From: Acidobacteriota bacterium
GTDB lineage: Bacteria > Acidobacteriota > Terriglobia > Acidiferrales > UBA7541
Assembly: GCA_003224085.1 (NCBI GenBank)
Contig: QHYK01000117.1
Coordinates: 1,139 to 65,138 of the forward strand
Direction of reading: 5' to 3'
DNA: 64,000 nucleotides
The position numbers and the translations under genes were made by a program. Below the pieces are notes generated by a model. It worked only from the letters and a program-made list of their open reading frames with translations, searched no databases and was not told the DNA's origin. Below are positions 26,152 to 43,745 of the stretch, one piece after another (within the stretch, counting starts at the first letter, position 1; every line of letters starts with the position of its first letter).

Positions 26152-28935
26152 ATGGGGAAGCTGGACGAATATAAGCGGAAGAGGAAGTTTGACCGGACGC
26201 CGGAGCCAGTGGGAGAACCCGACGCGGGTGAGGCGGAAAGGACTGCTGCGGCAATCGCCCCGCAGCGTGCAGGCAAGTCCGCCACGGTGGGCGGGTCTGC
26301 CGCTTCAGGCAAGCGCACGCGGTTGCCGAAACCGATGCCGAAGCTGCGGCTGGAAGTTCGTCCCGCCGACGAATACGGAAACATGTTCGTGGTGCAGAAG
26401 CATTCCGCGACGCGGCTGCACTACGACTTCCGGCTGGCGATTGATGGGACGCTGAAATCATGGGCGGTGCCCAAGGGGCCATCACAAAGCCAGGCGGACA
26501 AGCGCCTGGCGGTGCAGACCGAGGACCATCCGCTGGCATACGGTAACTTCGAGGGAAAAATTCCCGAAGGCAACTACGGCGCGGGAACCGTGATGGTGTG
26601 GGACCGCGGAACGTTTGTTGTGGAAGATGAGCCTGGCGGCGCAAGTCATCATCAGAAAAAGAGTCTCGCCGCGCTCCAGCAACTGGACCGCGGCGAGATT
26701 AAGATCAGTTTGAGCGGCGAGAAGCTGCGCGGCAGCTTCGTGCTGGTCAAGCTGAAGCGAAGCGAAAAGGGCAACGAGTGGCTGCTCATCAAGCACAAGG
26801 ACGCCGCCGAAGATCCAAAGTGGAACATTGACGAGCAGGACGGTTCGGTTCTCACCGGGCGCACCATCGAAGAAATTGCCGCGCAAGCTCCGCCGAAGCG
26901 GAGCCCTATCCCAATTCGTCCTGCGGAAGTGCAGGGCGCAAGCAAGGCCGCAATGCCGACACGTGTCGAGCCGATGCTGGCGACTCTTGCAGCCCATGCG
27001 TTCTCCGATCCCAACTGGCTGTTCGAGATTAAGTGGGACGGCGTGCGAGCGCTGGCGTGGATTGACGATGGCGCAGTGACGCTGCGCTCGCGCAATCACA
27101 TAGATATCACGACGCGCTATCCGGAATTGGCTGCGCTTCCCAAAGTTTTCGCCGCGCGGCAGGCGATTGTGGATGGCGAAATTGTGGCGCTCGATGCCAG
27201 CGGGCACAGTAATTTTCAACGCTTGCAGGAACGCATGCACGTGCGCGCGCCGGGAGAAAAGCAGATTCGCGAGACACCCGTCGTCTACTTTGCATTCGAC
27301 CTGATTTATTGCGATGGATACGATCTTCGCGAAGCGCCGCTGCTCGAGCGCAAGCAGCTTTTGCAGCGGATGCTGCACGCCGACGAGCGGTTTCGTTATT
27401 CCGATCATCAAATAGGGAAGGGGAAAGAATTGTTCGAACTGGCAAAAGAGAGAGGGCTGGAAGGAATTGTGGCGAAGCGCGTTGACAGCGCTTACCTAGG
27501 CGATCGCAGCGCGGGTTGGGCGAAGCTGAAAGTGAGCCAGACGCTCGACGCAGTGGTTGGCGGCTGGACGGAGGCGCGAACGGGGGCGATTCCGTTTGGT
27601 TCGCTGCTGCTGGGTTTGTACGAAGGGAAGAAGTTGCGCTTCATCGGTCACGTGGGAAGCGGATTCGATGCGAAGAAGCACGCGGAACTGAGCGGGAGGT
27701 TAAAAGAGCTGGCAATTTCCTCGTGCCCGTTTGAAAAGGTTCCGGAAACGAATGAAATGGCGTCGTGGGTGAAGCCGGGGTTGGTGGCGCGCGTGAAGTT
27801 CAGCGGATGGACGCTGGAAAAGTACCTGCGGCATCCCGTTTTTCTCGGATTGCGCGAGGACTTGAAGCCGGAAGAATGTAAATGGGAGAGCGAGGTTGCC
27901 ATGGCGGCGCCGACGGTAGTGCGAGCGCCCGAGGTTGTGGGAAACGTAATCAGCAAAGAGGCGGAGATCGAAGCGGAGTTGTTCAAAGGCCGCGCGGAGA
28001 CTATCACGATCGAGTTGGAAGGAAAGCGGCTGCGATTCAGCAACCTGAACAAGGTTTATTTTCCGGAATCCGGCTACACCAAGCGCGATTTGCTCGCTTA
28101 CTACTACCGCATGGCGGATTGCATTTTGCCGTTTCTCCAGGACCGCGCGCTGGTGTTGCGACGCTATCCGGACGGAATTAACGGGCAGGCGTTTTTTCAA
28201 AAAGATTTGGTTGAGGGCGTCCCAGAATGGTTTAAGACTGCGCCGATCGAATCCGAGGAACGAGGGAAGCAGATTCACTATGCGGCGGCGAACGACCGCG
28301 CTTCGCTCTTGTTTTTGACGGGGCTCGGCTGCATTGACCACAACCCCTGGACCAGTCGCCTCGATGACCTTGAGCACCCGGACTATTTCTTTTTTGATCT
28401 GGATCCTTCCGACGGTACGGATTTTTCCGTGGTGATTACGATCGCGCGAGCGCTCCATGAAAAGCTGGATGAGTTGGGAGTTGTGAGCTTCCTGAAAACT
28501 TCCGGCGCGACCGGATTCCACATTTTTATACCAGTAGAACCGCTTTATACGTATGAACAGTTGCGGACGTTTGGCGAGATTATCGCGCGAACGGTGACCG
28601 CAGAACACCCCAATCTTGTGACCAATGAGCGCTCCGTTGCGAAAAGGCCCGTGGGGCGCGTGCTCATTGACGTGCAGCAAAATGCGATGGGGCGGCCGCT
28701 GGCATGCGCGTATTCCGTACGAGCGTTTCCGAAGGCGCCAGTGTCCGCACCGGTGTCGCCGCGCGAATTGCGACCGGGCCTGCGGCCGGAAGACTTAAAC
28801 ATCAAAACAATCTTTGCGCGGCTGAAGGAGAAGGGCGATCTGTGGAAAGATTTTTGGAAGCGCCGACAAAGAATTGAGGAAGCGATCGAGCTTCTCAGCG
28901 AGGGCATGTCGTCGAAAGCAAAGAAAGTGCACTGA
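26152..28935 (+). CDS. ligD: ATP-dependent DNA ligase D (phosphoesterase-ligase-polymerase)
   Basis: A 927-residue multi-domain NHEJ enzyme in the Pseudomonas-type order. Residues about 55-210: 3'-phosphoesterase (SATRLHYDFRLAIDG, HPLAYGNFEGKIPEG, NYGAG). Residues about 265-580: ATP-dependent ligase with the nucleotidyl lysine in EIKWDGVRALAW and GLEGIVAKRVDS. Residues about 620-910: AEP-family polymerase/primase with YFFFDLDPSD (metal Asp pair) and KTSGATGFHIFIP. It starts at ATG 26152. With Ku it forms a complete bacterial end-joining pair, useful in non-replicating or desiccated cells. Confidence 0.96.
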   Translation: MGKLDEYKRKRKFDRTPEPVGEPDAGEAERTAAAIAPQRAGKSATVGGSAASGKRTRLPKPMPKLRLEVRPADEYGNMFVVQKHSATRLHYDFRLAIDGTLKSWAVPKGPSQSQADKRLAVQTEDHPLAYGNFEGKIPEGNYGAGTVMVWDRGTFVVEDEPGGASHHQKKSLAALQQLDRGEIKISLSGEKLRGSFVLVKLKRSEKGNEWLLIKHKDAAEDPKWNIDEQDGSVLTGRTIEEIAAQAPPKRSPIPIRPAEVQGASKAAMPTRVEPMLATLAAHAFSDPNWLFEIKWDGVRALAWIDDGAVTLRSRNHIDITTRYPELAALPKVFAARQAIVDGEIVALDASGHSNFQRLQERMHVRAPGEKQIRETPVVYFAFDLIYCDGYDLREAPLLERKQLLQRMLHADERFRYSDHQIGKGKELFELAKERGLEGIVAKRVDSAYLGDRSAGWAKLKVSQTLDAVVGGWTEARTGAIPFGSLLLGLYEGKKLRFIGHVGSGFDAKKHAELSGRLKELAISSCPFEKVPETNEMASWVKPGLVARVKFSGWTLEKYLRHPVFLGLREDLKPEECKWESEVAMAAPTVVRAPEVVGNVISKEAEIEAELFKGRAETITIELEGKRLRFSNLNKVYFPESGYTKRDLLAYYYRMADCILPFLQDRALVLRRYPDGINGQAFFQKDLVEGVPEWFKTAPIESEERGKQIHYAAANDRASLLFLTGLGCIDHNPWTSRLDDLEHPDYFFFDLDPSDGTDFSVVITIARALHEKLDELGVVSFLKTSGATGFHIFIPVEPLYTYEQLRTFGEIIARTVTAEHPNLVTNERSVAKRPVGRVLIDVQQNAMGRPLACAYSVRAFPKAPVSAPVSPRELRPGLRPEDLNIKTIFARLKEKGDLWKDFWKRRQRIEEAIELLSEGMSSKAKKVH

Positions 28936-28961: not shown

Positions 28962-29483
28962 GTGACCTCGCGCGACGTAATTGATCTCTACCTGACTCTG
29001 GAGAATCTAGGTGTCAAGATCTGGATTGATGGCGGCTGGGGTGTGGATGCTTTACTTGGAGAGCAGAGCCGGCCTCATAAAGACCTGGACATAGTGATTC
29101 AACAGAAGGACCTACCCAAGCTGCGAGAGGTGCTGCAGGAGCGAGGATACAAGGACGTTAAGGTGGAGATTGCGAGAGATTGGAATTTCGTTTTGGGCGA
29201 TGAGAATGGCAGAGAAATCGATGTGCACGTCATTGTGTTGGATGGTCAGGGAGATGGGCTATACGGCCGGCCGGAAAATGAAGAAAAATACCCCGCGCCT
29301 TCTTTGACGGGAAGCGGCCAGATCGAAGGCCGAATGGTGAGGTGCATTTCACCGGAGTGGATGGTGAGATTTCATTCCGGCTACGAACTCAAAGACAAGG
29401 ACTTTCGAGACGTCTCTGCTTTGTGCAGGAAATTCGGCATTGACTTGCCTTCCGAATACGCGCGGTTCAAGAACCCGAACTGA
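28962..29483 (+). CDS. Lincosamide/aminoglycoside nucleotidyltransferase-like protein
   Basis: A 173-residue nucleotidyltransferase-fold protein. The metal-site motif is complete: KIWIDGGWGVDALLGEQSRP, followed by HKDLDIVIQ and later EIDVHVIVLDGQG. This is the pattern of the LinA / ANT(2'')-type group, which adenylylates antibiotics. It starts at GTG 28962, 26 bases after ligD, in the same direction. It may be a resistance-like enzyme, but family members of unknown substrate are common. Confidence 0.78.
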   Translation: MTSRDVIDLYLTLENLGVKIWIDGGWGVDALLGEQSRPHKDLDIVIQQKDLPKLREVLQERGYKDVKVEIARDWNFVLGDENGREIDVHVIVLDGQGDGLYGRPENEEKYPAPSLTGSGQIEGRMVRCISPEWMVRFHSGYELKDKDFRDVSALCRKFGIDLPSEYARFKNPN

Positions 29484-32160: not shown

Positions 32161-32412
32161 AGCTAAAGCCTGTTGAAAAACCCCCAGCCTAACCCCTGTC
32201 GAATGCGAGCCCCCGTGTTTTTCCTCGGAAATTCGTAGAAAAAAAACCAGAATCCTTCGATTTTTCTCATTTTTCTCTTGACAATCATACGCCTAATCGA
32301 TATATTCGATTAAGTCATGCTCTCCTCGACCCAACACCAATCCTGGCTCTTCTATCTCCCTTTGGCCCAGCAGGCCGCCCTGCTGAAGGACGACTTGCTC
32401 GAACCCGGGTAA
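32161..32412 (+). mobile_element. IS left-end remnant with truncated transposase start
   Basis: The segment starts with an IS-end-like GCCTGTTGAAAAACCC stretch. It contains an ORF (ATG 32317 to TAA 32412) of 31 codons, MLSSTQHQSWLFYLPLAQQ..., that looks like the N-terminus of an IS transposase (family not certain) cut after LLKDDLLEP. The end abuts the start of the diaminopropionate gene cluster four bases later. I read it as an IS broken by insertion of, or recombination with, the cluster. Confidence 0.6.
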
Positions 32413-32415
32413 AGG

Positions 32416-33474
32416 ATGGACACAAATTGCAGCCTGCCATTACAACGCACGATCGTGAGGGAGCCGGAGCGGAGGGACGACAACGGTTTCGCAAAAGGAG
32501 GAAAACATCTCGATCAGATTTCTTCGTCCCGTCTCGCCACGCGTTTGCGAGAGCTTCGAAATACCCTACGACCCACGCCACATGTGCAGTTGGCAATGAA
32601 GGGCATGGATCTGTTTGCCAAACTCGAATATGTCAACCCAGTTGGGAGTATCAAGGATCGCGCCGCCTACTGGATCCTCAGACGAGCGGCCGAGCGAGGT
32701 GAGATTTGTGACCAGACAACGGTGATCGAGTCCTCCTCCGGGAACTTTGCCTGTGCTCTCGCCGCCTTCACGCACCTGGTCGGCCTGCGGTTCATCCCGG
32801 TGATCGACCCCAATATTTCTGGCACCTACGAGTCGTTCCTCCGGCGTCTCTGTCCCACGGTGGTGAAGGTCGAGGACCCCGACGATACCGGCGGATTCCT
32901 GAAGACCCGCCTGCAAAAAGTGAAGCAACTCTGTGCCACCATCCCGAACGCCTTCTGGACGAACCAGTACGGAAATCTGGACGCCGTGGAGGCGCACTAC
33001 GAGCTCACGGCGACGGAAATCTGCGCCGATTTTGACTCGCTTGATTATGTCTTCATCGGCGTCAGCACGGCGGGAACGATCGCCGGAGTGTCTCGCCGGC
33101 TTAAAGAGCGCTATCCCAACATTCGGGTCATCGCCGTCGATACCGAAGGCTCCGCCATCTTCGGTGGGGCACCGCGCAGACGCCACATTCCCGGCGCTGG
33201 ATCGAGTATCGTCCCGCAGTTACTGTCGCACGCCAAAATCGACGACATTGTCTTGATATCCGAGCGGGAGACCGTTCAAGCGTGCAGCGAACTCCTGACG
33301 ACCCACGGACTGTTCGTGGGCGGCTCCAGCGGAACGGCCTTTGCGGCGGTCAAGCGGTATGCTGCGAGGATTCCGGCGTACGAGCACCCGACAGTGATGT
33401 TCCTGTGCGCGGACCGCGGCACGCCTTACCTTGACACGGTCTTCGATCCCGCGTGGGCGACCAGGCTCGAATAG
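32416..33474 (+). CDS. sbnA: SbnA-type N-(2-amino-2-carboxyethyl)-L-glutamate synthase
   Basis: A 352-residue PLP enzyme of the cysteine-synthase fold. In staphyloferrin B synthesis SbnA joins O-phospho-L-serine and L-glutamate, the first step to L-2,3-diaminopropionate. The PLP lysine is K80 in NPVGSIKDRAA; the phosphate/carboxylate loop is ESSSGNFA; STAGTIAGVSRRLKE and LFVGGSSGTAFAAV hold the cofactor phosphate. GGFLKTRLQKVKQL and IFGGAPRRRHIPGAGSS are SbnA-like rather than CysK-like. The first 30 or so residues are outside the conserved core and may be a mis-start; no later ATG or GTG has a ribosome site, although AAAGGAGG lies at 32496-32503. First gene of the cluster. Confidence 0.88.
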   Translation: MDTNCSLPLQRTIVREPERRDDNGFAKGGKHLDQISSSRLATRLRELRNTLRPTPHVQLAMKGMDLFAKLEYVNPVGSIKDRAAYWILRRAAERGEICDQTTVIESSSGNFACALAAFTHLVGLRFIPVIDPNISGTYESFLRRLCPTVVKVEDPDDTGGFLKTRLQKVKQLCATIPNAFWTNQYGNLDAVEAHYELTATEICADFDSLDYVFIGVSTAGTIAGVSRRLKERYPNIRVIAVDTEGSAIFGGAPRRRHIPGAGSSIVPQLLSHAKIDDIVLISERETVQACSELLTTHGLFVGGSSGTAFAAVKRYAARIPAYEHPTVMFLCADRGTPYLDTVFDPAWATRLE

Positions 33475-33489
33475 CGGAGCGCCGAAGCG

Positions 33490-34503
33490 ATGCACTTCGA
33501 GCTATCGATCATCAACGGCAAAATCGTCTTCGACATCATTCGGGCTCACCGAGCCGGTTGTATCGACATTGTCCAGAATGCGTATCTCGCGCACGCCCAG
33601 GGGCAGTCCGTCAACCCGGACAGCTACTTTCTGCGGTTCCCCGACAAGCCCGATTGCCGGATCATCGCGCTTCCGGCCTATCTGGGAGACGGCTTCCACG
33701 TGGCGGGACTCAAGTGGATCGCCAGTTATCCCGGCAACGTCCAGCGAGGCTTTCCGCGCGCATCGGCCGTGCTCGTGCTCAATAACTACGAGAATGGCTA
33801 CCCCTTTGCCATCCTCGAGAGCTCGATCATCTCGGCGGCCCGAACGGCCGCGTCCGCGGCTCTTGCCGCGTACTGGCTGACCGGGCGGTCGCGCCGGGCG
33901 CATTCGCTGGGCATCGTGGGCACCGGGTTCATCGCCCGGTACGTGTACGACTTCCTGGTCGACACTGGATGGGAGATCGAAGAAGTTCGTTTATACGACA
34001 AGTCACCTGTCGAGAGCGAGAAATTCAAAAATACGGCGTGCCGCCCCGAGCACCACCGCACCGTCACAGTCATTCCCGAGCTGACGCAACTGCTGAGGGC
34101 CTCTGACCTGATCGTTTTCACGACCGTCGCGTCCGCGCCATACATTAGCGACGCTTCCCTCTTCGAGCACAACCCGGTGGTGCTGCATATTTCCCTTCGC
34201 GATCTCGCACCCGAGATCCTTCTGCAATCCCAGAACGTCGTCGACGACGTCGAGCACGTCATGAAGGCAAACACCTCCCCTCATCTCACCGAGCAGCTGA
34301 CCGGAAGCCGAAGCTTCGTGACGGGGACTCTCGCCGAGATCATGCTTGGACGCCGATCGGTGAATCGTAGCCGTCCGATCCTTTTCTCCCCCTTCGGCCT
34401 GGGGATCCTCGACGTGGCGGTCGGCAAGTGGGTGTACGACAGGGCGGTGGCCGCCGGCCAGGACCAGCGCTTATCAGATTTCTTCTACGAGACCGCGCGA
34501 TGA
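33490..34503 (+). CDS. sbnB: SbnB-type N-(2-amino-2-carboxyethyl)-L-glutamate dehydrogenase
   Basis: A 337-residue member of the ornithine cyclodeaminase/mu-crystallin family. In the Sbn pathway SbnB oxidatively cleaves the SbnA product to L-2,3-diaminopropionate and 2-oxoglutarate with NAD+. The Rossmann motif is GIVGTGFIARYV (residues 141-152). The substrate region KWIASYPGN, GFPRASAVLVLNN and NGYPFAILE is typical. The gene starts 15 bases after sbnA and is surely co-transcribed. Together the pair commits this cluster to making Dap. Confidence 0.9.
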   Translation: MHFELSIINGKIVFDIIRAHRAGCIDIVQNAYLAHAQGQSVNPDSYFLRFPDKPDCRIIALPAYLGDGFHVAGLKWIASYPGNVQRGFPRASAVLVLNNYENGYPFAILESSIISAARTAASAALAAYWLTGRSRRAHSLGIVGTGFIARYVYDFLVDTGWEIEEVRLYDKSPVESEKFKNTACRPEHHRTVTVIPELTQLLRASDLIVFTTVASAPYISDASLFEHNPVVLHISLRDLAPEILLQSQNVVDDVEHVMKANTSPHLTEQLTGSRSFVTGTLAEIMLGRRSVNRSRPILFSPFGLGILDVAVGKWVYDRAVAAGQDQRLSDFFYETAR

Positions 34504-34533
34504 GGGCGGGCTCGTCCCATTGAGGTGACCGCG

Positions 34534-36993
34534 ATGCCAAAGTCGACGTGGGTGATCGACGGTCCGCGCGGCTCCGCGCCGACGGGCGTCGAAGCCGTCT
34601 TCGCCGGGCTGCTCGCCGAGGTCCTGCATATCGACCGTGTGTCGGTGGACAGCCATTTCTTTGACGACCTCGGTGCCGACTCGTTGGTCATGGCCCATTT
34701 CTGCGCACGAGTGAGGAAACGCGGAAACCTACCGTCGGTATCGATGCAGGACATCTACCGGCATCCGACGATCAGAACCCTGGCAGCGGCGGTCGCGGAC
34801 GTCTTGCCTAGGTCTGTCAAGTCGTCGGTTGCACCAGCAATTGAGGCGCCGACGCCGACAAGCGCGCGAGAGTACGTCTTCTGCGGAGCGCTGCAGGCCT
34901 TGTTTTTCTTGGCATACTCATATGTTGCCGTGGTCGCCATCACGGCGGGTTACGCGTGGGTCGCGGCGGGCGCGAGCGCCGTCCAGATTGGCCTGCGATT
35001 GGTCCTGGCCAGCAGCGCGGCGTTCTTGGCCGTGTGCGCCGTTCCGATCGCGGTGAAGTGGATGCTCGTAGGTCGTTGGTATCCCCAGCAGATCCGCCTC
35101 TGGAGCCTCGCGTACGTCCGCTTCTGGATCGTCAAGACACTCATCCGGTCGAGCCCTGTCGTCCGTATGTTCATCGGGACGCCCGTGTATCTGTTCTATC
35201 TGAGGGCGCTGGGCGCGAAAATCGGGCCGGGCGTCGTGATCTTCTCCCGGCGCGCGCCGGTTTGCACTGATATGTTGACAATCGGCGCAGGGACGGTGAT
35301 TCGCAGAGAGGCGGTCTTCAACGGCTACAGGGCACAGGCCGGACGGATCGAGATCGGACCGGTGACGCTCGGCCGGGAAGTGTTCGTCGGGGAACGGAGC
35401 GTGCTCGACATCCATACGTCCATGGGCAACGGGGCGCAGCTCGGTCACGCATCCGCGCTGCACAGCGGCCAGACGGTACCGCAGGGCGAGCGGTGGCACG
35501 GATCTCCGGCACAGCGCACGGACGTGAACTACCTGAGGGTCCCGCCAGCTCGATGCGGAACGCTGCGTCGGACCGTCTATTCCGCTGTCGCCCTGCTCGT
35601 TGTCCCGCTGCTGTACCTGCCGCTCATGGAGGGGGGCGCGAGCCTGGCGACCGCCGCGGCATCGTGGCTGGTTCACGCGCTCGCACCGGCCGCAGGTGCG
35701 CTGGGGGCGCTCTTCATCCAAGCCGTGATCCTCTCGCTGCTGCTGTTTTTCGGCCTCGGGCTCGTCGGGCTCCTTCTCCAGGTCGCCGTCCCCCGCGTGT
35801 TGAAGCCGTTCATCAAACCGGACAAGGTCTATCCGCTGTACGGCTTCCACGACGTGGTCCACCGGGCGATCGCGCGGTTGGGTAGCCTAAAGTTCTTTAC
35901 GTTCCTCTTTGGTGACAGCTCGTATATCGTCCCGTATCTGCAGTGGCTTGGCTATCAGCTTTCCCCCGTCGTGCAGACCGGGTCGAATTTTGGCAACGAG
36001 GTGATGCACTCGAACCCGTTCCTGTGCTCTGTCAGCAGCGGAACGATGGTCGCCGACGGGTTGATTCTGATGAACGACGAGGTCTCGAGCACGTCGTTCC
36101 GCGTGTCCCGCGTGACGATCGGTCCCAACAATTTCCTGGGGAACGACGTGACCTATCCCGCGGGCGGCAGGACGGGCGACAACGTTCTCCTCGGCACGAA
36201 GGCGATGGTTCCGCTCGACGGCAAGATTCGCGAGGGGGTGGGCTTGTTGGGCGCCCCGTGCTTCGAGATTCCGCGGACCGTCGAACGAGACACCCAATTC
36301 GACCATCTCCGAACGGGGGAGGCGCTGAGCCGCGGTCTTGCGGCGAAGAATCGGTATAACCTGCGGACTATCGGCATCTTCCTTTTGACGCGATGGATGA
36401 GCCTCCTCCTGTTCGCTATGCTCTACCTCGCTGCCTTCGAACTGTACAATGCGCTTTTCCATGTCGTGAGCGCTGTGTGCTTCGCGCTCAGCGTGGTGGT
36501 CGCCGGAGTTTACTTCACGCTGGTGGCGCGCGGCCTCGAAGCGTTGCATCCAGTGCGGCCGGCCATTTGCTCCATCTACCACCCTGATTTCTGGTCGATT
36601 GAGCGCCTGTGGAAGCTGCATCCGATTCATTATCTCCACGCGTTCGATGGCACGCCGTTCAAGAACGTGCTCTGGCGGCTGATGGGCGTTCGGATGGGGA
36701 AAAGGGTCTTCGACGACGGCACCCACATCCCCGAGCCGACCCTCATCACGATCGGAGACGAATCGGTCCTCAATTACCGAAGCAAGATCCAATGCCACTC
36801 GCAGGAGGACGGCACCTTCAAAAGCGATCGCACGACGATCGGCGCCGGCTGCACGATCGGGGTTGATGCGTTGGTCCACTATGGCGTGACCATGGGTGAC
36901 GGCGCAATGCTCGCGGTCGACTCCTTCCTCATGAAGGGAGAGGATGTCCCGCCGCGCACGCGGTGGGCCGGCAACCCGGCGAGGGAGATGTGA
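34534..36993 (+). CDS. Carrier protein fused to Pls-type terminal membrane/hexapeptide region
   Basis: An 819-residue protein lacking an adenylation domain. Residues 15-92: peptidyl carrier with the pantetheinylation serine S50 (DDLGADSLVM). Residues 115-178: two membrane helices. Residues 225-330: left-handed beta-helix (hexapeptide) domain 1. Residues 347-420: two or three helices. Residues 480-580: hexapeptide-like domain 2 (VTIGPNNFLGNDVTYPAGG). Residues 612-668: helices. Residues 735-815: domain 3 (TTIGAGCTIGVDALVHYG). This order is that of the C-terminal part of Pls/PosA-family synthetases (NRPS_term_dom), where tandem domains form amide bonds at the membrane. The ATG 34534 has AGGTG upstream. 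Adjacent A-PCP protein is the probable partner. Confidence 0.85.
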   Translation: MPKSTWVIDGPRGSAPTGVEAVFAGLLAEVLHIDRVSVDSHFFDDLGADSLVMAHFCARVRKRGNLPSVSMQDIYRHPTIRTLAAAVADVLPRSVKSSVAPAIEAPTPTSAREYVFCGALQALFFLAYSYVAVVAITAGYAWVAAGASAVQIGLRLVLASSAAFLAVCAVPIAVKWMLVGRWYPQQIRLWSLAYVRFWIVKTLIRSSPVVRMFIGTPVYLFYLRALGAKIGPGVVIFSRRAPVCTDMLTIGAGTVIRREAVFNGYRAQAGRIEIGPVTLGREVFVGERSVLDIHTSMGNGAQLGHASALHSGQTVPQGERWHGSPAQRTDVNYLRVPPARCGTLRRTVYSAVALLVVPLLYLPLMEGGASLATAAASWLVHALAPAAGALGALFIQAVILSLLLFFGLGLVGLLLQVAVPRVLKPFIKPDKVYPLYGFHDVVHRAIARLGSLKFFTFLFGDSSYIVPYLQWLGYQLSPVVQTGSNFGNEVMHSNPFLCSVSSGTMVADGLILMNDEVSSTSFRVSRVTIGPNNFLGNDVTYPAGGRTGDNVLLGTKAMVPLDGKIREGVGLLGAPCFEIPRTVERDTQFDHLRTGEALSRGLAAKNRYNLRTIGIFLLTRWMSLLLFAMLYLAAFELYNALFHVVSAVCFALSVVVAGVYFTLVARGLEALHPVRPAICSIYHPDFWSIERLWKLHPIHYLHAFDGTPFKNVLWRLMGVRMGKRVFDDGTHIPEPTLITIGDESVLNYRSKIQCHSQEDGTFKSDRTTIGAGCTIGVDALVHYGVTMGDGAMLAVDSFLMKGEDVPPRTRWAGNPAREM

Positions 36994-36994
36994 G

Positions 36995-39535
36995 ATGACG
37001 AATATCGAGTTGCGGGGCGGGGATACGGCGACCACCGCCGAGCGAAGCCGGGACTTCTGGCGCGGTGTCCTTCACGCCGGTGGCTTTGCGGCGGTCCCGA
37101 GGTGGACTCTCGACCCCGTGCCCGGCGTCGACGAACACGCAGTGCGGATTCCCGACGAGCTCGTGGCGGCGCTGCGCCGGCGTGCGGACGAACTGGCGGT
37201 GCCCCTCAGCTCGGTGCTGCTTACCGCGCACGCCAAGGTGCTTGGCGCCCTCTCCGGTGAGCGCGAGGTATGCACCGGCTACGCCGCGGAGGGCGGATCG
37301 CCGTTGCCATGCCGAATGACAATCGGAGGCCGCACCTGGCGAGACGTAGTACGGGAAACTGCGCGAGAAGAGTCAGCGCTGCTATGGCACAAGGATTTTC
37401 CAGTCGCGGAGCTCCGACGTGAGCTGGGTCTCACCGGGCCGTTGTTTGAAGCTGTGTTCGAACTGGGTGCGAGCGGAGTGCAGATCGCCGAGGGGATCGT
37501 GCTGCGCGTCGCCTTCGTGGAACACGACGGGCTTGTGATGCGGCTCCGCTACAAGACGGACGCTATGGACGCGTCCTGCGCCGCCAGGATCGCCGGCTAT
37601 CACGTCACTGCGCTCGCCTTAATCGCGACGGATCCAGATGCGGAACACGCTCGACAGTCCCTGCTCTCCGCCGAGGAGCTGCGCTTCCAGCTTAACGGCC
37701 TCGCTGGGCCGCACAGGGCTCTGCCCGACTGCCGGGTCCACGAGCTGTTCGAGGAACGAGTTCGGGCACACCCGGACGCCATCGCGGCCTTGCACGGCAA
37801 CAAACAGTGGACGTACCGGGAACTCAACGTTCGCGCCAATCAGCTGGCACGATCCCTGCTGTCGCGGGGGCTGGCCCGCGAAGGTGTCGTAGGAGTAGTG
37901 ACGGAGCGTAATCTGGACTGGCTGACTGCGGTACTCGCGATCTTCAAGGCTGGCGGCGCGTACTTGCCCATGGAGCCGCATTTCCCCGCCGACCGCATCG
38001 CTAGGACGCTCTCTCGAGCTGGCTCCCGGTTCGTGCTGACCGAACGCGGCAGCACCGCGATGCTCGCCGAGGCACTCGAATCCCTCCCGAACGTCGAGCA
38101 ACTCTTCGTCGACGCGCCATACACGGAAGGTCATCCCGACGGCGACCTCGGGATCCCCGTGGCCCCCGACCAACTCGCGTACATCTACTTCACCTCCGGT
38201 TCGACCGGTGAGCCCAAGGGCGCGATGTGCGAGCACGCGGGCATGCTCAACCACCTTTTTGCCAAGATTGCTGATCTAGGCATCGGCGAGGGAGACGTGG
38301 TGGCCCAGACGGCGCCCCAGTGCTTCGACATCTCACTGTGGCAATTGGTTTCCGCGCTTTTAGTCGGCGGGCGGACGCTGATCGTGGAGCAGGAGACGAT
38401 CCTCGACGCACCGCGTTTCATCAGCAAGATTGTCGAGGGCCGTGTGGCTGTCGTTCAGGTTGTGCCGTCCTACCTCGAAGTCCTGGTGTCCTATCTGACG
38501 CAGCATCCTCGCGATCTGCCGGAGTTGCGATGCGTATCGGTTACGGGCGAGGCGCTGAAGAAAGAGCTGGTGCAGCGCTGGTTCGCGGTCCAACCTAGGA
38601 TCAAGCTGGTTAACGCGTACGGGCTTACCGAGACCTCTGACGACACCAACCACGAGGTTATGGACGCTGTGCCTCGCCGAGAACGTATTCCGCTTGGCCG
38701 CCCTATCAACAATGTGCACGTCTACGTCGTCGACGAACATCTGTCACCAGTGCCGCTCGGCGCACCCGGAGAGATCGTCTTTTCCGGTGTGTGTGTTGGC
38801 CGCGGGTACATCAATGATCCCGAGCGCACGCACCCCGCGTTCCTCGCCGATCCGCACCGCCAGTGCCAAAGGCTCTACCGGAGTGGGGACTATGGCCGCT
38901 GGCTGCCCGAGGGCAAGCTGGAGTTTCTCGGCCGCCGGGATGCGCAGGTCAAGATCAGCGGCTTCCGGATTGAGATCGGCGAGATCGAGAACCGACTCTT
39001 GCGGCTGCCCGGCGTCCGCGAAGGCGCGGTCGTGGTGACCGAACGCGCTGATCGCAGCAGCAAGCAACTCGTGGCCTTCTACGCCGGCCAGGGACCACTC
39101 GATGCCAACGTTCTGCGGGACCAGCTCCGTGAGTCGCTGCCCGAGTACATGGTTCCGTCGGCCTTCCATTGGCGGAGAGGACTCCCATTGACGGACAACG
39201 GCAAGATCGACAGGAAGGCTTTAGTGACGCTCGCTGGAGAACTCGATGTTGCCGAACAGGACTGCGACGGGCCAACCACGGAGACGGAGCGTCGGTTGGC
39301 CGCCGCATGGGCTGACGTGCTAGGCATTCCGAGGGAACAGATCGGCCGGCGAGACCAGTTCTTTGATCTGGGTGGTACGTCGCTGTCAGCACTGAAACTG
39401 CTGATCAAGCTTGAACGTGCTGTGTCCTTCAAGGACCTCACGGATCATCCGATTCTCGCCAATCTGGCCACGCTGGTCGACGAGAGGTCCGCGCAGGGGC
39501 TCATAGCGGGCCCAGAAAAGTTACCTTTACCTTGA
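36995..39535 (+). CDS. NRPS protein: partial condensation, adenylation, carrier
   Basis: An 846-residue protein. Residues 15-225 match only the C-terminal subdomain of a condensation domain; the HHxxxDG half is absent. Residues 245-745: adenylation domain with FTSGSTGEPKG (399-409), FDISLW (444-449), NAYGLTE (540-546), YRSGDYGRW (628-636), GRRDAQVKISGFRIEIGEIE (646-665) and the catalytic lysine K737 in DNGKIDRK. Residues 765-835: carrier with Ser796 (DLGGTSLSAL). The hand-derived specificity code is D-I-W-S-S-T-A-D-D-K; acidic residues near positions 330/331 fit a basic amino acid such as Dap. No thioesterase. The ATG 36995 follows GAGGGAG, one base past the previous stop. Confidence 0.9.
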   Translation: MTNIELRGGDTATTAERSRDFWRGVLHAGGFAAVPRWTLDPVPGVDEHAVRIPDELVAALRRRADELAVPLSSVLLTAHAKVLGALSGEREVCTGYAAEGGSPLPCRMTIGGRTWRDVVRETAREESALLWHKDFPVAELRRELGLTGPLFEAVFELGASGVQIAEGIVLRVAFVEHDGLVMRLRYKTDAMDASCAARIAGYHVTALALIATDPDAEHARQSLLSAEELRFQLNGLAGPHRALPDCRVHELFEERVRAHPDAIAALHGNKQWTYRELNVRANQLARSLLSRGLAREGVVGVVTERNLDWLTAVLAIFKAGGAYLPMEPHFPADRIARTLSRAGSRFVLTERGSTAMLAEALESLPNVEQLFVDAPYTEGHPDGDLGIPVAPDQLAYIYFTSGSTGEPKGAMCEHAGMLNHLFAKIADLGIGEGDVVAQTAPQCFDISLWQLVSALLVGGRTLIVEQETILDAPRFISKIVEGRVAVVQVVPSYLEVLVSYLTQHPRDLPELRCVSVTGEALKKELVQRWFAVQPRIKLVNAYGLTETSDDTNHEVMDAVPRRERIPLGRPINNVHVYVVDEHLSPVPLGAPGEIVFSGVCVGRGYINDPERTHPAFLADPHRQCQRLYRSGDYGRWLPEGKLEFLGRRDAQVKISGFRIEIGEIENRLLRLPGVREGAVVVTERADRSSKQLVAFYAGQGPLDANVLRDQLRESLPEYMVPSAFHWRRGLPLTDNGKIDRKALVTLAGELDVAEQDCDGPTTETERRLAAAWADVLGIPREQIGRRDQFFDLGGTSLSALKLLIKLERAVSFKDLTDHPILANLATLVDERSAQGLIAGPEKLPLP

Positions 39536-39561
39536 GCAGCAGCGACTGTAAGGAGATCGAG

Positions 39562-40563
39562 ATGCCAACCTCATCCCCGACCTCACGTCTTAACGTGGAC
39601 ATTCAACGCGGAAAGCCACCCATGCTGCAGGTCGACGCAACCGACGACGCCGCGCGCTGGGTCGCCGAGCACCGCGACGCGCTGCGCGCCGCCGTCGTCC
39701 AGCACGGTGCGCTCCTCGTTCGCGGCCTCAAGTTGCACGACGCGGCCGGGACCGAATCCGTCTTTCGGCGGCTAGGCAGTCTGATGACCGAGAAAGAGGC
39801 CTTTGCCGCCCGACGGAGCTACTCCCACAGCGTATATTCCTCATCGAAGTGGCCGCCCAACCAGCAAATGTGCATGCACCACGAACTCAGCTACGTGCTT
39901 GAGTTCCCCAGCGTAATGCTGTTTGCGTGCCTCATTGCGCCGACTGACGGGGGCGCGACACCGGTGGCGGACTCGCGGACGTTACTCCGCGCACTGCCCA
40001 CCGGGTTGATCGAACGTTTTGAGCGGGAGGGCTGGCTACTGGTCCGCAACTACAACAACGAAATCGGTGCGCCGATTGCTGAAGCATTTGGTGCCGACGA
40101 CCGGCGCACCGTCGAAAGTTACTGTCGTGCGAACGCGATCACGTTCGAGTGGCAGCGCGACGGTGCGCTTCGCACCTGGCAGCGGCGCAGCGCCGTCGTA
40201 CGTCACCCGCGGACTGGCCAGCGGTGCTGGTTCAACCAAATCGCATTCCTCAACGAGTGGACGATAGATCCGGAGGTGCGAGAGTATCTCGTGGAAATCT
40301 ACGGCGAGGACGGGTTGCCGTTCAATACGCGCTTTGGCAACGGCGACGCGATCGGCGCGGACGTCGTGCAGTTGATCAACGAGGTTTACGAGGCAAACAC
40401 CGCACGCGAGCAGTGGCAGAGTGGGGACCTGATGCTCGTTGACAACGTCAGCAACGCGCATGGCAGGGAGCGCTTCGAGGGACCGCGCGAAGTGCTCGTC
40501 GCGATGGCCGACGCCGTGCACCTGGCCGACTGCTCACCGACGATCGAGGTGACCGCCAGCTGA
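39562..40563 (+). CDS. SyrP/TauD-type Fe(II)/2-oxoglutarate oxygenase
   Basis: A 333-residue enzyme of the TauD/SyrP family. The metal motif is HxE (H106-H107-E108 in CMHHELSY), as in SyrP-like hydroxylases that use Glu rather than Asp, followed by LIAPTDGGATPVADS and a distal His in VDNVSNAHGRERF (H300). SyrP relatives hydroxylate amino acids bound to a carrier protein. The ATG 39562 has GGAG eight bases upstream. It follows the A-PCP gene by 26 bases, so a PCP-bound Dap or its oligomer is the likely substrate, by inference. Confidence 0.85.
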   Translation: MPTSSPTSRLNVDIQRGKPPMLQVDATDDAARWVAEHRDALRAAVVQHGALLVRGLKLHDAAGTESVFRRLGSLMTEKEAFAARRSYSHSVYSSSKWPPNQQMCMHHELSYVLEFPSVMLFACLIAPTDGGATPVADSRTLLRALPTGLIERFEREGWLLVRNYNNEIGAPIAEAFGADDRRTVESYCRANAITFEWQRDGALRTWQRRSAVVRHPRTGQRCWFNQIAFLNEWTIDPEVREYLVEIYGEDGLPFNTRFGNGDAIGADVVQLINEVYEANTAREQWQSGDLMLVDNVSNAHGRERFEGPREVLVAMADAVHLADCSPTIEVTAS

Positions 40564-40574
40564 CGACCACCGCG

Positions 40575-41333
40575 ATGTCTCTCACCGCTTCACTACCGAG
40601 CTGTTTTCCACTGGCGTCCGACGAAGTTCATATTTGGTGCGCCAGTCTCGACGTTCCGCCTGAAACATCCGCTCGCCTCCACGCGACCCTAACGCCTGAT
40701 GAACGCACCCGGAGTGCGCGTTTTCATTTCGAACGCCATCGGCAGCGTTTCATTGTCGCGCGCGGAATGCTGCGTTATCTCTTGGGGCGGTATCTTCAGG
40801 CCCAACCTAGTCAAGTAAGCCTTGTTTACAACGAGTTCGGCAAGCCTGGCCTTAGCCCTGAATTCGCCAACCGGCTCAAATTCAATCTCTCTCACTCCGC
40901 TGGCCTTGCCCTCATTGTTATCGCCGCTGCCCCAAACGTCGGCGTAGATCTCGAATACATCCGGGCGCAGTCTGATTACGCAGATATCGCGCGACATTTC
41001 TTCTCAGCAACTGAAGTTGACTACTTGACCCATACTCCAAGCCAGTTATACGCCGAAGCCTTCTTCAGTTGTTGGACAAAGAAGGAGGCTTACCTTAAAG
41101 CCTGTGGCGAGGGTCTCGCGATACCGTTGAATAGTTTTTCTGTCCCTCTGACCGCTGATTCTGCGCACACTCCTGTAGATCTTTATGTTCCCTCAGAGGA
41201 TAGCGTTCCAGCCAAGCGTTGGTCGCTCTATACCCTCCGACCTGCCTGGGGCTATGCCGGAGCAGTTGCAATTGAGGGAACTGGCTGGCGCTTGCGTCAA
41301 TGGCAATGGAAGATGCCTCAAGCCGTCGAGTGA
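40575..41333 (+). CDS. Sfp-type 4'-phosphopantetheinyl transferase
   Basis: A 252-residue PPTase that installs phosphopantetheine on carrier-protein serines. The three signature blocks are FNLSHSAGLALI, VGVDLEYIR (Mg ligands Asp, Glu) and FFSCWTKKEAYLKACGEGL. It starts at ATG 40575, 11 bases after the oxygenase, and is last in the cluster. Its codons look less GC-rich than the five upstream genes, hinting at a different origin. It presumably activates the two carriers at residues S50 and S796 of the upstream proteins. Confidence 0.92.
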   Translation: MSLTASLPSCFPLASDEVHIWCASLDVPPETSARLHATLTPDERTRSARFHFERHRQRFIVARGMLRYLLGRYLQAQPSQVSLVYNEFGKPGLSPEFANRLKFNLSHSAGLALIVIAAAPNVGVDLEYIRAQSDYADIARHFFSATEVDYLTHTPSQLYAEAFFSCWTKKEAYLKACGEGLAIPLNSFSVPLTADSAHTPVDLYVPSEDSVPAKRWSLYTLRPAWGYAGAVAIEGTGWRLRQWQWKMPQAVE

Positions 41334-42231: not shown

Positions 42232-42758
42232 TTTCCACCGTAACGGGTAACGTCCCGAGCGTCGGTTTGATTGGATTGACCAATCGATTAGGTAAGGGGG
42301 GACTTATGGCGTTTGGGGTTATTTTCTGGAGCAACTCTTCAAGCGAAATACCACGATCGCTCATGTCGAGCATGGCCAGAGCCTGCAGGCGTCTAGCGTC
42401 CGCCGAGCAGAATCGATGTTCGGGGCATCGGCCCCGCTAGCATCAGCGCCAACGCTTCCTGCTCACCAGGATCAATACTTTCAGAAAAGAGGGCATCAAA
42501 CTGGTTCATCAACTCGGATAGTTCGTTGAGATCCGCTTGGAGTTCTTTCACCTTATTCTGAGCAATTAGAGAAGCGAGTTGGATGGGGTTGTGCTTCCCC
42601 CCGACCACGAAATACTTTGCTTCGTGGCGGGCGACCACCGCGGGAACCATCACTTCGAAAGAGGCGACCATCCGATGCCAAAATCCGAGTTCGTGAGCTT
42701 CAATGATTACGTTCGCATCAAGCAATACTAAGGGCGGCTTCACTGGGTTGCTGCTCAA
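42137..42758 (-). pseudogene. PIN-domain ribonuclease-like protein, frameshifted
   Basis: Residues 1-121 in the first frame (PLVLLDANVIIEAHELGFWH with the first PIN aspartate, then ESIDPGEQEALALMLAG) end in TAG. One base earlier another frame continues FCSADARRLQALAMLDMSDR and GISLEELLQKI, the expected C-terminus with the third acidic residue. A one-base shift near 42403 therefore breaks the gene. It overlaps the end of the gene at 42718 by about 41 bases. Confidence 0.7.
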
Positions 42759-42999
42759 GTGCTTTCACTTTCCCGCGAAGCTCCGCCAGACTTACCCCGA
42801 TAAGCTCGGCCAATTTCGCGCGTGATAGTTGCTCCTTTTGAAAGCACAGGAAGCAAAGTCTCACATAGCGGTCGGACAAGTCTTTTGGCTTCCACCATTT
42901 GTCCGGCATCGTAGAGCGGTCAACGTCCCGAAATGCAGGGTCGGCCAACACCTTTCTCACATCCTCCGCATCAATCTGTCGCAGGTTACCAATCGCCAC
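42718..42999 (-). CDS. Small HTH-like antitoxin/regulator candidate
   Basis: A 93-residue protein between the ImmA/IrrE-like and PIN genes, overlapping each by about 40 bases. The C-terminal part (KLAELIGVSLAELRGKVKAL) looks like a helix-turn-helix. It has conserved WW (DKWWKPKDLSDRYVRL) typical of a small family seen with ImmA/IrrE peptidases and PIN proteins. A role as antitoxin or transcriptional partner is inferred from context. Confidence 0.6.
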   Translation of the reverse strand: MAIGNLRQIDAEDVRKVLADPAFRDVDRSTMPDKWWKPKDLSDRYVRLCFLCFQKEQLSRAKLAELIGVSLAELRGKVKALEQQPSEAALSIA

Positions 43000-43745
43000 A
43001 AGAGCGCCTCGGTCGAAACGTCAAATTCCCGCGCTATCTCGACGAGATCCGCATAGCTGATTTTTCTTTCATTCAACCTCTCTGCAAAAGCACTCAACAC
43101 GCATTCCGCAGGAAGCAGCAAACAAGAAGCAAAAGAGTTCGCAAGCTTCTCAAACCTGTCTTTCAGTTCTTTCTCTCGACGGAGTCGCTCAGGGGGCATA
43201 ACATTCCACGTCAGCAGATGAAAGAGCCCATGGGCAAAATTGTAGTTGCGCCGCCATGGCGATTCCGAGGAATTCATCAAGATCGCTTGTCCAAAGTCGC
43301 CCACTGCCGATGCCGCTGAGCCCGACAACTCCTCTCGATAGAAGATTTTGATTCCAAAATCCTTCTCGAGGACCTTGGTCAGCGACGTCGCGGGCACCCG
43401 TCCGAGATTCATCGTCTTACCAACTTCCAATGCGAGTTCGGCTGCCTCACGGTATCCAAGCTCTTCTCCGGATATCTCGGCAGGTCGTAGCTGGGACTTC
43501 GGCCGAATCCCGGACAGCTTTTCAACAAGATGGTAGTTGTGCGACAGGTGCAGGAATTCTGTTTCGATCTTCTGGTAGTTGTTCTCGGGCTGCTCTCGCC
43601 AGAGGACGACGGGTTCCGCGACAGCATCTTCTTTCAGAAGCTCATTAATGCTCGTGTGCAACACGGAGGAAATCCGGGCAAGTTCCCATGCCTTGACTTG
43701 CCGCTCTCCATTCTCGATCTGCGACGCATCACAATAGATTGCAAG
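42957..43745 (-). pseudogene. XRE-ImmA/IrrE metallopeptidase, N-terminally truncated
   Basis: The C-terminal 235 residues resemble the HTH plus ImmA/IrrE family: FAHGLFHLL is a variant zinc HExxH-like segment (normally HEL.H; here HGLFH), with FASCLLLPAE downstream. The open frame runs further upstream (CDASQIENGERQVKAWELAR, the second half of an XRE HTH) but meets TAG at 43746-43748, so the first half of the HTH is lost. The Glu of HExxH is replaced by Gly, so the peptidase may be inactive even if translated from the GTG at 43664. Confidence 0.65.

Follow-up and report, generated by a model that had tools for sequence, protein, structure and literature searches.

The operon

The window analysed here, a 64,000-nucleotide stretch of contig QHYK01000117.1 from an Acidobacteriota bacterium, carries at 32416-41333 a six-gene operon that appears to make L-2,3-diaminopropionate (Dap) and to assemble it on carrier (T) domains. 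The open reading frames (ORFs) and family scans confirm the close-packed, co-directional set given in the first-pass annotation: SbnA, SbnB, a T domain fused to a Pls-type terminal region (T-Pls), a protein with adenylation (A) and T domains (A-T), an oxygenase and a phosphopantetheinyl transferase (PPTase). All six ORFs lie on the + strand, with gaps of 15, 21, 1, 26 and 11 bases. The gap of 26 applies to the ATG start of the oxygenase gene at 39562; a TTG start at 39532 instead gives a 4-base overlap with the A-T gene. Table 1 also lists a partial condensation (C) domain at the start of the A-T protein that was overlooked earlier. The PPTase scores 214 bits against the HetI model NF042922, under that model's cut-off of 370. 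Carrier domains match six times in the whole genome, and two of these matches are in the operon.

Table 1. Predicted features of the operon and its upstream region (window coordinates). PLP, pyridoxal phosphate; ACEGA, N-(1-amino-1-carboxyl-2-ethyl)glutamate.
Feature	Position	Strand	Basis
SbnA-type PLP enzyme (Dap synthase step 1: O-phosphoserine + Glu to ACEGA)	32416..33474	+	TIGR03945
SbnB-type oxidoreductase (Dap synthase step 2: ACEGA to Dap + 2-oxoglutarate)	33490..34503	+	TIGR03944
T domain fused to Pls/PosA-type terminal region, without A domain	34525..36993	+	PF00550, TIGR02353
T domain of T-Pls protein, Ser53 in LGADSL	34603..34794	+	PF00550, residues 27-90
Pls terminal (polymerisation) region, 3 transmembrane pairs and 3 soluble hexapeptide-repeat stretches	34882..36981	+	TIGR02353, residues 120-819
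Truncated C - A - T protein	36995..39535	+	PF00501 (269 bits), PF00550, partial PF00668
C-terminal half of condensation domain, without HHxxxDG lobe	37040..37678	+	PF00668 (24 bits)
Adenylation domain, code DIWQSTADDK	37736..39223	+	Motif alignment and homologue codes
T domain of A-T protein	39293..39475	+	PF00550, residues 768-828
TauD/TfdA-type Fe(II)/2-oxoglutarate oxygenase	39562..40563 (ATG); upstream TTG 39532	+	PF02668 (147 bits)
Sfp/HetI-type PPTase	40575..41333	+	PF01648 (ACPS), PF22624
Putative sigma-70-like promoter TTGACA-N17-TATATT, upstream of operon	32278..32306	+	11/12 consensus match

Distribution

The six-gene set is, judged by its occurrence across genomes, no chance grouping: many bacteria far from this host have it too. 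Named genomes scanned with an alignment of the T-Pls clade yielded 80 loci. Most are from Streptomyces and other Actinomycetota; the rest include Rokubacteria, Gemmatimonadetes, beta- and gammaproteobacterial metagenome-assembled genomes (MAGs), Pseudogulbenkiania subflava and ferrooxidans, and gp2 and gp6 Acidobacteria. Where enough flank was available, 57 of 62 loci hold all five core genes (T-Pls, A-T, TauD, SbnB and SbnA); the loci were picked by T-Pls similarity, and 57/62 is therefore no general frequency. Proteobacterial and acidobacterial versions have the order sbnA-sbnB-T.Pls-A.T-tauD, and most Actinomycetota have T.Pls-A.T-tauD-sbnB-sbnA. About a third of the Streptomyces genomes sampled (71 of 199) encode a T-Pls protein of the clade (E < 1e-150), a count of this protein alone and not of its neighbourhood; most copies are stand-alone and a few are fused. 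No further conserved gene, such as a transporter or regulator, stood out near the core; the large families there were core genes and antisense or out-of-frame readings.

In a sample of 297 genomes of the phylum, the sole close T-Pls match is the window's own, other full-length matches being fused Pls proteins at about 30% identity, and T-Pls is patchy among sampled congeners (4/35). We reject the view that the cluster is special to Acidobacteriota: its core is widespread, present in several phyla and mostly found in Actinomycetota. G+C content is 63-64% around the T-Pls, A-T and oxygenase genes versus 53-59% elsewhere in the window, which suggests that the operon DNA was horizontally acquired in this host.

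Dap supply

SbnA and SbnB both exceed the cut-offs of their equivalog models (SbnA, 407 bits against 350 for TIGR03945; SbnB, 436 against 327 for TIGR03944). No other gene of the host genome reaches the TIGR03945 cut-off, and none does so in 14 control genomes. Aligned to the Staphylococcus aureus SbnA structure 5D84, the window's SbnA retains the PLP lysine Lys47 as well as Arg132, Tyr152 and Ser185, which are named as the O-phosphoserine-selective residues of the S. aureus enzyme (PMC12414870). The capreomycin homologue CmnB retains the corresponding Arg, Tyr and Ser. A PDB search with the window's SbnA scores SbnA at 238 bits and CmnB at 163 bits. In the SbnA tree, the window groups (100/100) with same-operon homologues of gp2 and gp6 Acidobacteria, a betaproteobacterium and Pseudogulbenkiania, separate from the cysteine-synthase-like genes of its own genome, although deeper forks are weak. 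Equivalog score, retained residues and tree thus all speak against a grouping of SbnA with cysteine synthases, the outcome that had been named as evidence against a role in Dap supply. The proposal that SbnA and SbnB make Dap is supported by these family-level comparisons.

The strongest evidence that the assembly line would use Dap comes from the exchange of sbnAB gene pairs. Three different sbnAB types are found beside a well-conserved core. In sampled Actinomycetota, the core is 57-59% (T-Pls), 63-73% (A-T) and 63-74% (TauD) identical to the window's, whereas at the same loci SbnA is just 35-38% and SbnB 50-54% identical. In a third group (L054, L059 and L143), SbnA and SbnB are 40-44% identical to the window's, and A-T and TauD, where present, 73-77%. 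Taken over both other types, SbnA is 35-41%, SbnB 41-54%, A-T and TauD 63-77% and T-Pls 57-74% identical to the window's. The third type lies upstream of T-Pls in the window's own genus (G314 and G326), where other members carry the window's type (G313 and G307); two of the three types thus fill one and the same operon slot within a genus. Relatives tested from both other types exceed both equivalog cut-offs. Because non-orthologous pairs are swapped beside a conserved core, Dap supply itself is, on this comparison, apparently the trait that is conserved and under selection. The local PPTase is 76% identical in a gp6 MAG and 33-38% in congeners.

The carrier-terminal protein

The T-Pls protein scores 713 bits against the terminal-domain model TIGR02353 (NRPS_term_dom, cut-off 423), with a PF00550 carrier in front. 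Hydropathy and an AlphaFold2 model place three membrane-helix pairs at residues 114-182, 346-429 and 598-674, with hexapeptide-type soluble parts, bearing out the annotated Pls-type terminal region. The model has a mean pLDDT (predicted local distance difference test score) of 73.7, weaker at 557-591 and the C-terminus. Its Foldseek matches are hexapeptide acyltransferases at small coverage. The layout agrees with the published PosA model (PMC10522769). Of the columns that show no variation in eleven distant fused Pls proteins, forty-five are retained, including H758, E761, D762 and K766.

The protein departs from the A-T-terminal architecture on a single chain: it holds T and terminal region only, and the A domain is on the next gene. 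In the T-Pls tree (rooted by midpoint only), the split proteins form one clade with moderate support (84/49 and 89/96). The outer part of this clade consists of fused proteins, which points to loss of the A domain from an originally fused form.

Other arrangements occur among these relatives. One fused member of the clade adjoins an ectB-type diaminobutyrate transaminase. In five relatives (L040, L042, L081, L091 and L094) the terminal region is preceded by two or three carrier domains in tandem, and two orphan T-Pls genes (L037 and L038) are on Streptomyces plasmids, other core genes not being nearby.

The adenylation protein and its pocket

The C part of the A-T protein covers PF00668 profile positions 192-451 of 456 and, at 24 bits, falls under the Pfam cut-off of 30.6. 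It lacks the catalytic HHxxxDG lobe of a functional C domain. The ten-residue A code was taken by motif alignment to the positions that we take to be those of GrsA. It reads DIWQSTADDK, and 61 of 71 homologous A domains have exactly this code; the fully read remainder vary at positions 5-7 only. A search of the literature for this code as a string gave no match.

As a yardstick we used a cluster with a 96% CmnB match, in which adjacent A domains read DVYHFSLVDK and DVRHLSMVEK, taken by their order as CmnA-A1 and CmnA-A2. CmnA-A1 has been shown to activate L-Dap and to charge with it, in trans, the T domain of CmnI, which has no A domain (PMC12400406). The window's pocket is likewise small and polar, and has one extra acid at position 8. 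This Ser/Dap-like pocket is compatible with Dap and favours it as the likely A substrate.

The same code also occurs in a Streptomyces plasmid cluster without Pls (L046), next to one SbnA-like and one argininosuccinate-lyase-like enzyme, a kinase and an ATP-grasp protein; we read this neighbourhood as another Dap-type route. A Kitasatospora locus (L045) likewise has SbnA-like and argininosuccinate-lyase-like enzymes and ATP-grasp domains beside an A-T protein whose code is the same or nearly so, and both clusters probably represent another Dap-using pathway.

We also considered an A domain of the type found in cationic homopoly(amino acid) (CHPA) synthetases such as Pls. These synthetases conserve Asp and Glu at code positions 1 and 3, and the Glu is needed (PMC10522769). 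The window has Trp at position 3, and we reject this assignment.

The oxygenase

The oxygenase is of the TauD/TfdA family. Its Fe-binding triad (H116-x-E118 and H310) and the 2-oxoglutarate-binding R319 are invariant in 30 homologues, in keeping with the possible hydroxylation step suggested by the first-pass annotation. The predicted model (pLDDT 80) has a TauD fold, with 1y0z (At3g21360) as best solved match (Z 27.6). The substrate of At3g21360 is unknown, and the fold matches are generic TauD-fold enzymes without a substrate clue. Hydroxylation is our first guess for the reaction, and desaturation is possible. S. aureus SbnB releases 2-oxoglutarate when making Dap (PMC4668381); in the window, 2-oxoglutarate from SbnB may serve as the oxygenase co-substrate, coupling the two steps. 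The oxygenase accompanies a T-Pls protein in Pseudonocardia and an A-T protein in Kitasatospora. Pseudogulbenkiania versions have a D-2-hydroxyacid dehydrogenase-type gene between oxygenase and PPTase (L055, 9481-10500).

Upstream region and neighbouring genes

The putative promoter upstream of sbnA had no equal match in 100 shuffles of the sequence. Within 32294-32412, an operator-like inverted repeat, TAATCGA-TATAT-TCGATTA, overlaps its -10 element, and a 31-codon ORF sits between the promoter and sbnA. None of the three has a counterpart in the relatives compared. Elsewhere in the window, three ORFs on the minus strand at 42396-43664 resemble a toxin-antitoxin or stress-response unit: one is an IrrE/ImmA-like M78 peptidase (PF06114), and the other two are small and without Pfam match, one with a PIN-like start. 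A lone aminoglycoside-2''-adenylyltransferase-like protein (PF10706, 122 bits) at 28962-29480 adjoins a LigD gene (26152-28935).

Proposed pathway and alternatives

We observe directly the gene set, its protein families and conserved residues, an A code kept within the family, the exchange of the Dap gene pair and the membrane architecture. From these we infer Dap as the A substrate, loading in trans, formation and length of a chain, and oxidation and its position. The reading that we favour, with modest confidence, is a split, two-protein synthetase for a cationic poly- or oligo-amino acid that makes its own monomer and yields a short polycationic, partly oxidised Dap chain. SbnA and SbnB would produce Dap and release 2-oxoglutarate. 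The separate A domain would adenylate Dap and load it both on its own T domain and, in trans, onto that of the T-Pls protein, both having been armed by the local PPTase. The membrane terminal region would then link Dap units by amide, probably isopeptide, bonds, and the TauD-type oxygenase, using 2-oxoglutarate, would oxidise (most likely hydroxylate) carrier-bound Dap. Poly- or oligo-Dap is a plausible product.

Several observations weigh against this pathway. Thirty other columns that are invariant in distant fused Pls proteins differ in T-Pls, and the chemistry of the terminal region may therefore differ as well. Hydroxylation of free Dap at the beta position would yield a carbinolamine, which is unstable unless an acyl group sits on the beta-amine. 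Trp at position 3 and Asp at position 9 occur in Ser-type pocket codes, so Ser or another small polar residue could be the A substrate. Finally, the thioesterase-length extension on most Streptomyces A-T proteins would fit the release of a short peptide no less than a polymer.

Such a short peptide is the best surviving alternative, although we think it unlikely. Here the terminal region would act once or twice as an acyltransferase, and the cluster would make either a small di- or tripeptide that contains Dap or a modified Dap that is released. Most Streptomyces A-T proteins are about 240 residues longer, the one scanned ending in a PF00975 thioesterase, and clusters without a Pls region contain close relatives of the A-T protein whose code is the same or almost identical. 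Judged by protein lengths, however, the extension is missing from the window and its nearest relatives, and the terminal region retains its membrane architecture and core motif.

Somewhat less probable is a hetero-peptide, in which the A domain activates Ser, Asp or an Ala-like residue, the oxygenase hydroxylates that residue and Dap is an amine acceptor only. The Ser-type features of the pocket would fit, and SyrP-type enzymes hydroxylate carrier-bound Asp. Against it stand the extra Asp at code position 8 and the presence of the same code in the plasmid cluster with a different apparent Dap route.

The two separate carriers could also provide backbone and side-chain Dap separately for a branched multi-Dap-poly-Dap, like the comb-like Dap polymer described chemically from Streptomyces (Takehara 2021, as cited in PMC9606270 and PMC10522769) with no gene cluster found reported in the literature looked at, but this would leave the oxygenase unexplained and we regard it as improbable.

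Relation to known systems

On these comparisons, the cluster resembles Pls/CHPA synthetases but lacks two of their defining features, the fusion and the D-x-E code. Epsilon-poly-lysine synthetase, the delta-poly-ornithine synthetase PosA and the poly-Dap (PDAP) synthetase share with it the TIGR02353 region, an adjoining T domain, three helix pairs and hexapeptide-type soluble parts. In contrast, the window's A domain is of the ordinary nonribosomal peptide synthetase (NRPS) type and on a separate protein. Streptomyces albulus PD-1 makes poly-Dap with a single A-T-terminal protein (pdaps) and has its Dap genes elsewhere (PMC4668381). The precedent that had been cited for Dap genes adjoining a Pls-like synthetase in Streptomyces is therefore wrong; the window differs from the PDAP system in having oxygenase and Dap genes in one operon.

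SbnA/SbnB of staphyloferrin B and CmnB/CmnK of capreomycin belong to the same Dap-forming families, with the Arg, Tyr and Ser substrate residues in common. Those pathways feed an NRPS-independent siderophore (NIS) synthetase and a tuberactinomycin NRPS, whereas the window couples the Dap enzymes to a Pls-type machine. CmnA-A1 and CmnI offer a likeness in that one A domain charges a T domain on a different, A-less protein with L-Dap (PMC12400406), but CmnI has a C domain and not a membrane Pls region, and the pocket codes differ. A Streptomyces scabies SbnB homologue, whose gene has an sbnA homologue and an NRPS gene nearby, was seen in the proteome with potato tubers (PMC11479980).

Two Pseudonocardia plasmid loci (L041 and L042) carry, side by side, terminal regions of the same clade (46-50% identity) and oxygenases of the same family (51-55%). 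They differ from the window in that the L042 A domain, of unrelated code, has stayed fused and that an AMP-binding gene precedes the Pls gene in L041; neither has a separate A-T protein of the window's type.

We found no literature describing this split gene set or its product, a weak negative since most subscription journals were outside our coverage. A published synthetase survey built its network from proteins of 1100-1800 residues (PMC10522769). Such a length filter would drop stand-alone carrier-terminal proteins of about 830 residues and may be why the family was overlooked.

Significance

The number of known cationic homopoly(amino acid)s is small, and the synthetases that we found characterised are one-piece enzymes. 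We raise, as a tentative extension, that the clade represents a widespread, undescribed class of homopolymer synthetase made of two proteins. An A-T protein of ordinary NRPS type would supply a membrane Pls polymerase in trans, and a 2-oxoglutarate oxygenase would decorate the chain; many soil Streptomyces and scattered soil phyla would then make an oxidised, possibly comb-like, poly-Dap. The sbnAB cassettes, exchanged within a single operon slot, clearly exemplify the modular evolution of biosynthesis. With monomer supply, activation, polymerisation and oxidation on separate genes, each step is separately testable, including bond formation by the Pls region. Cultured hosts (Pseudogulbenkiania and many Streptomyces) carry the cluster, which puts its product within reach.

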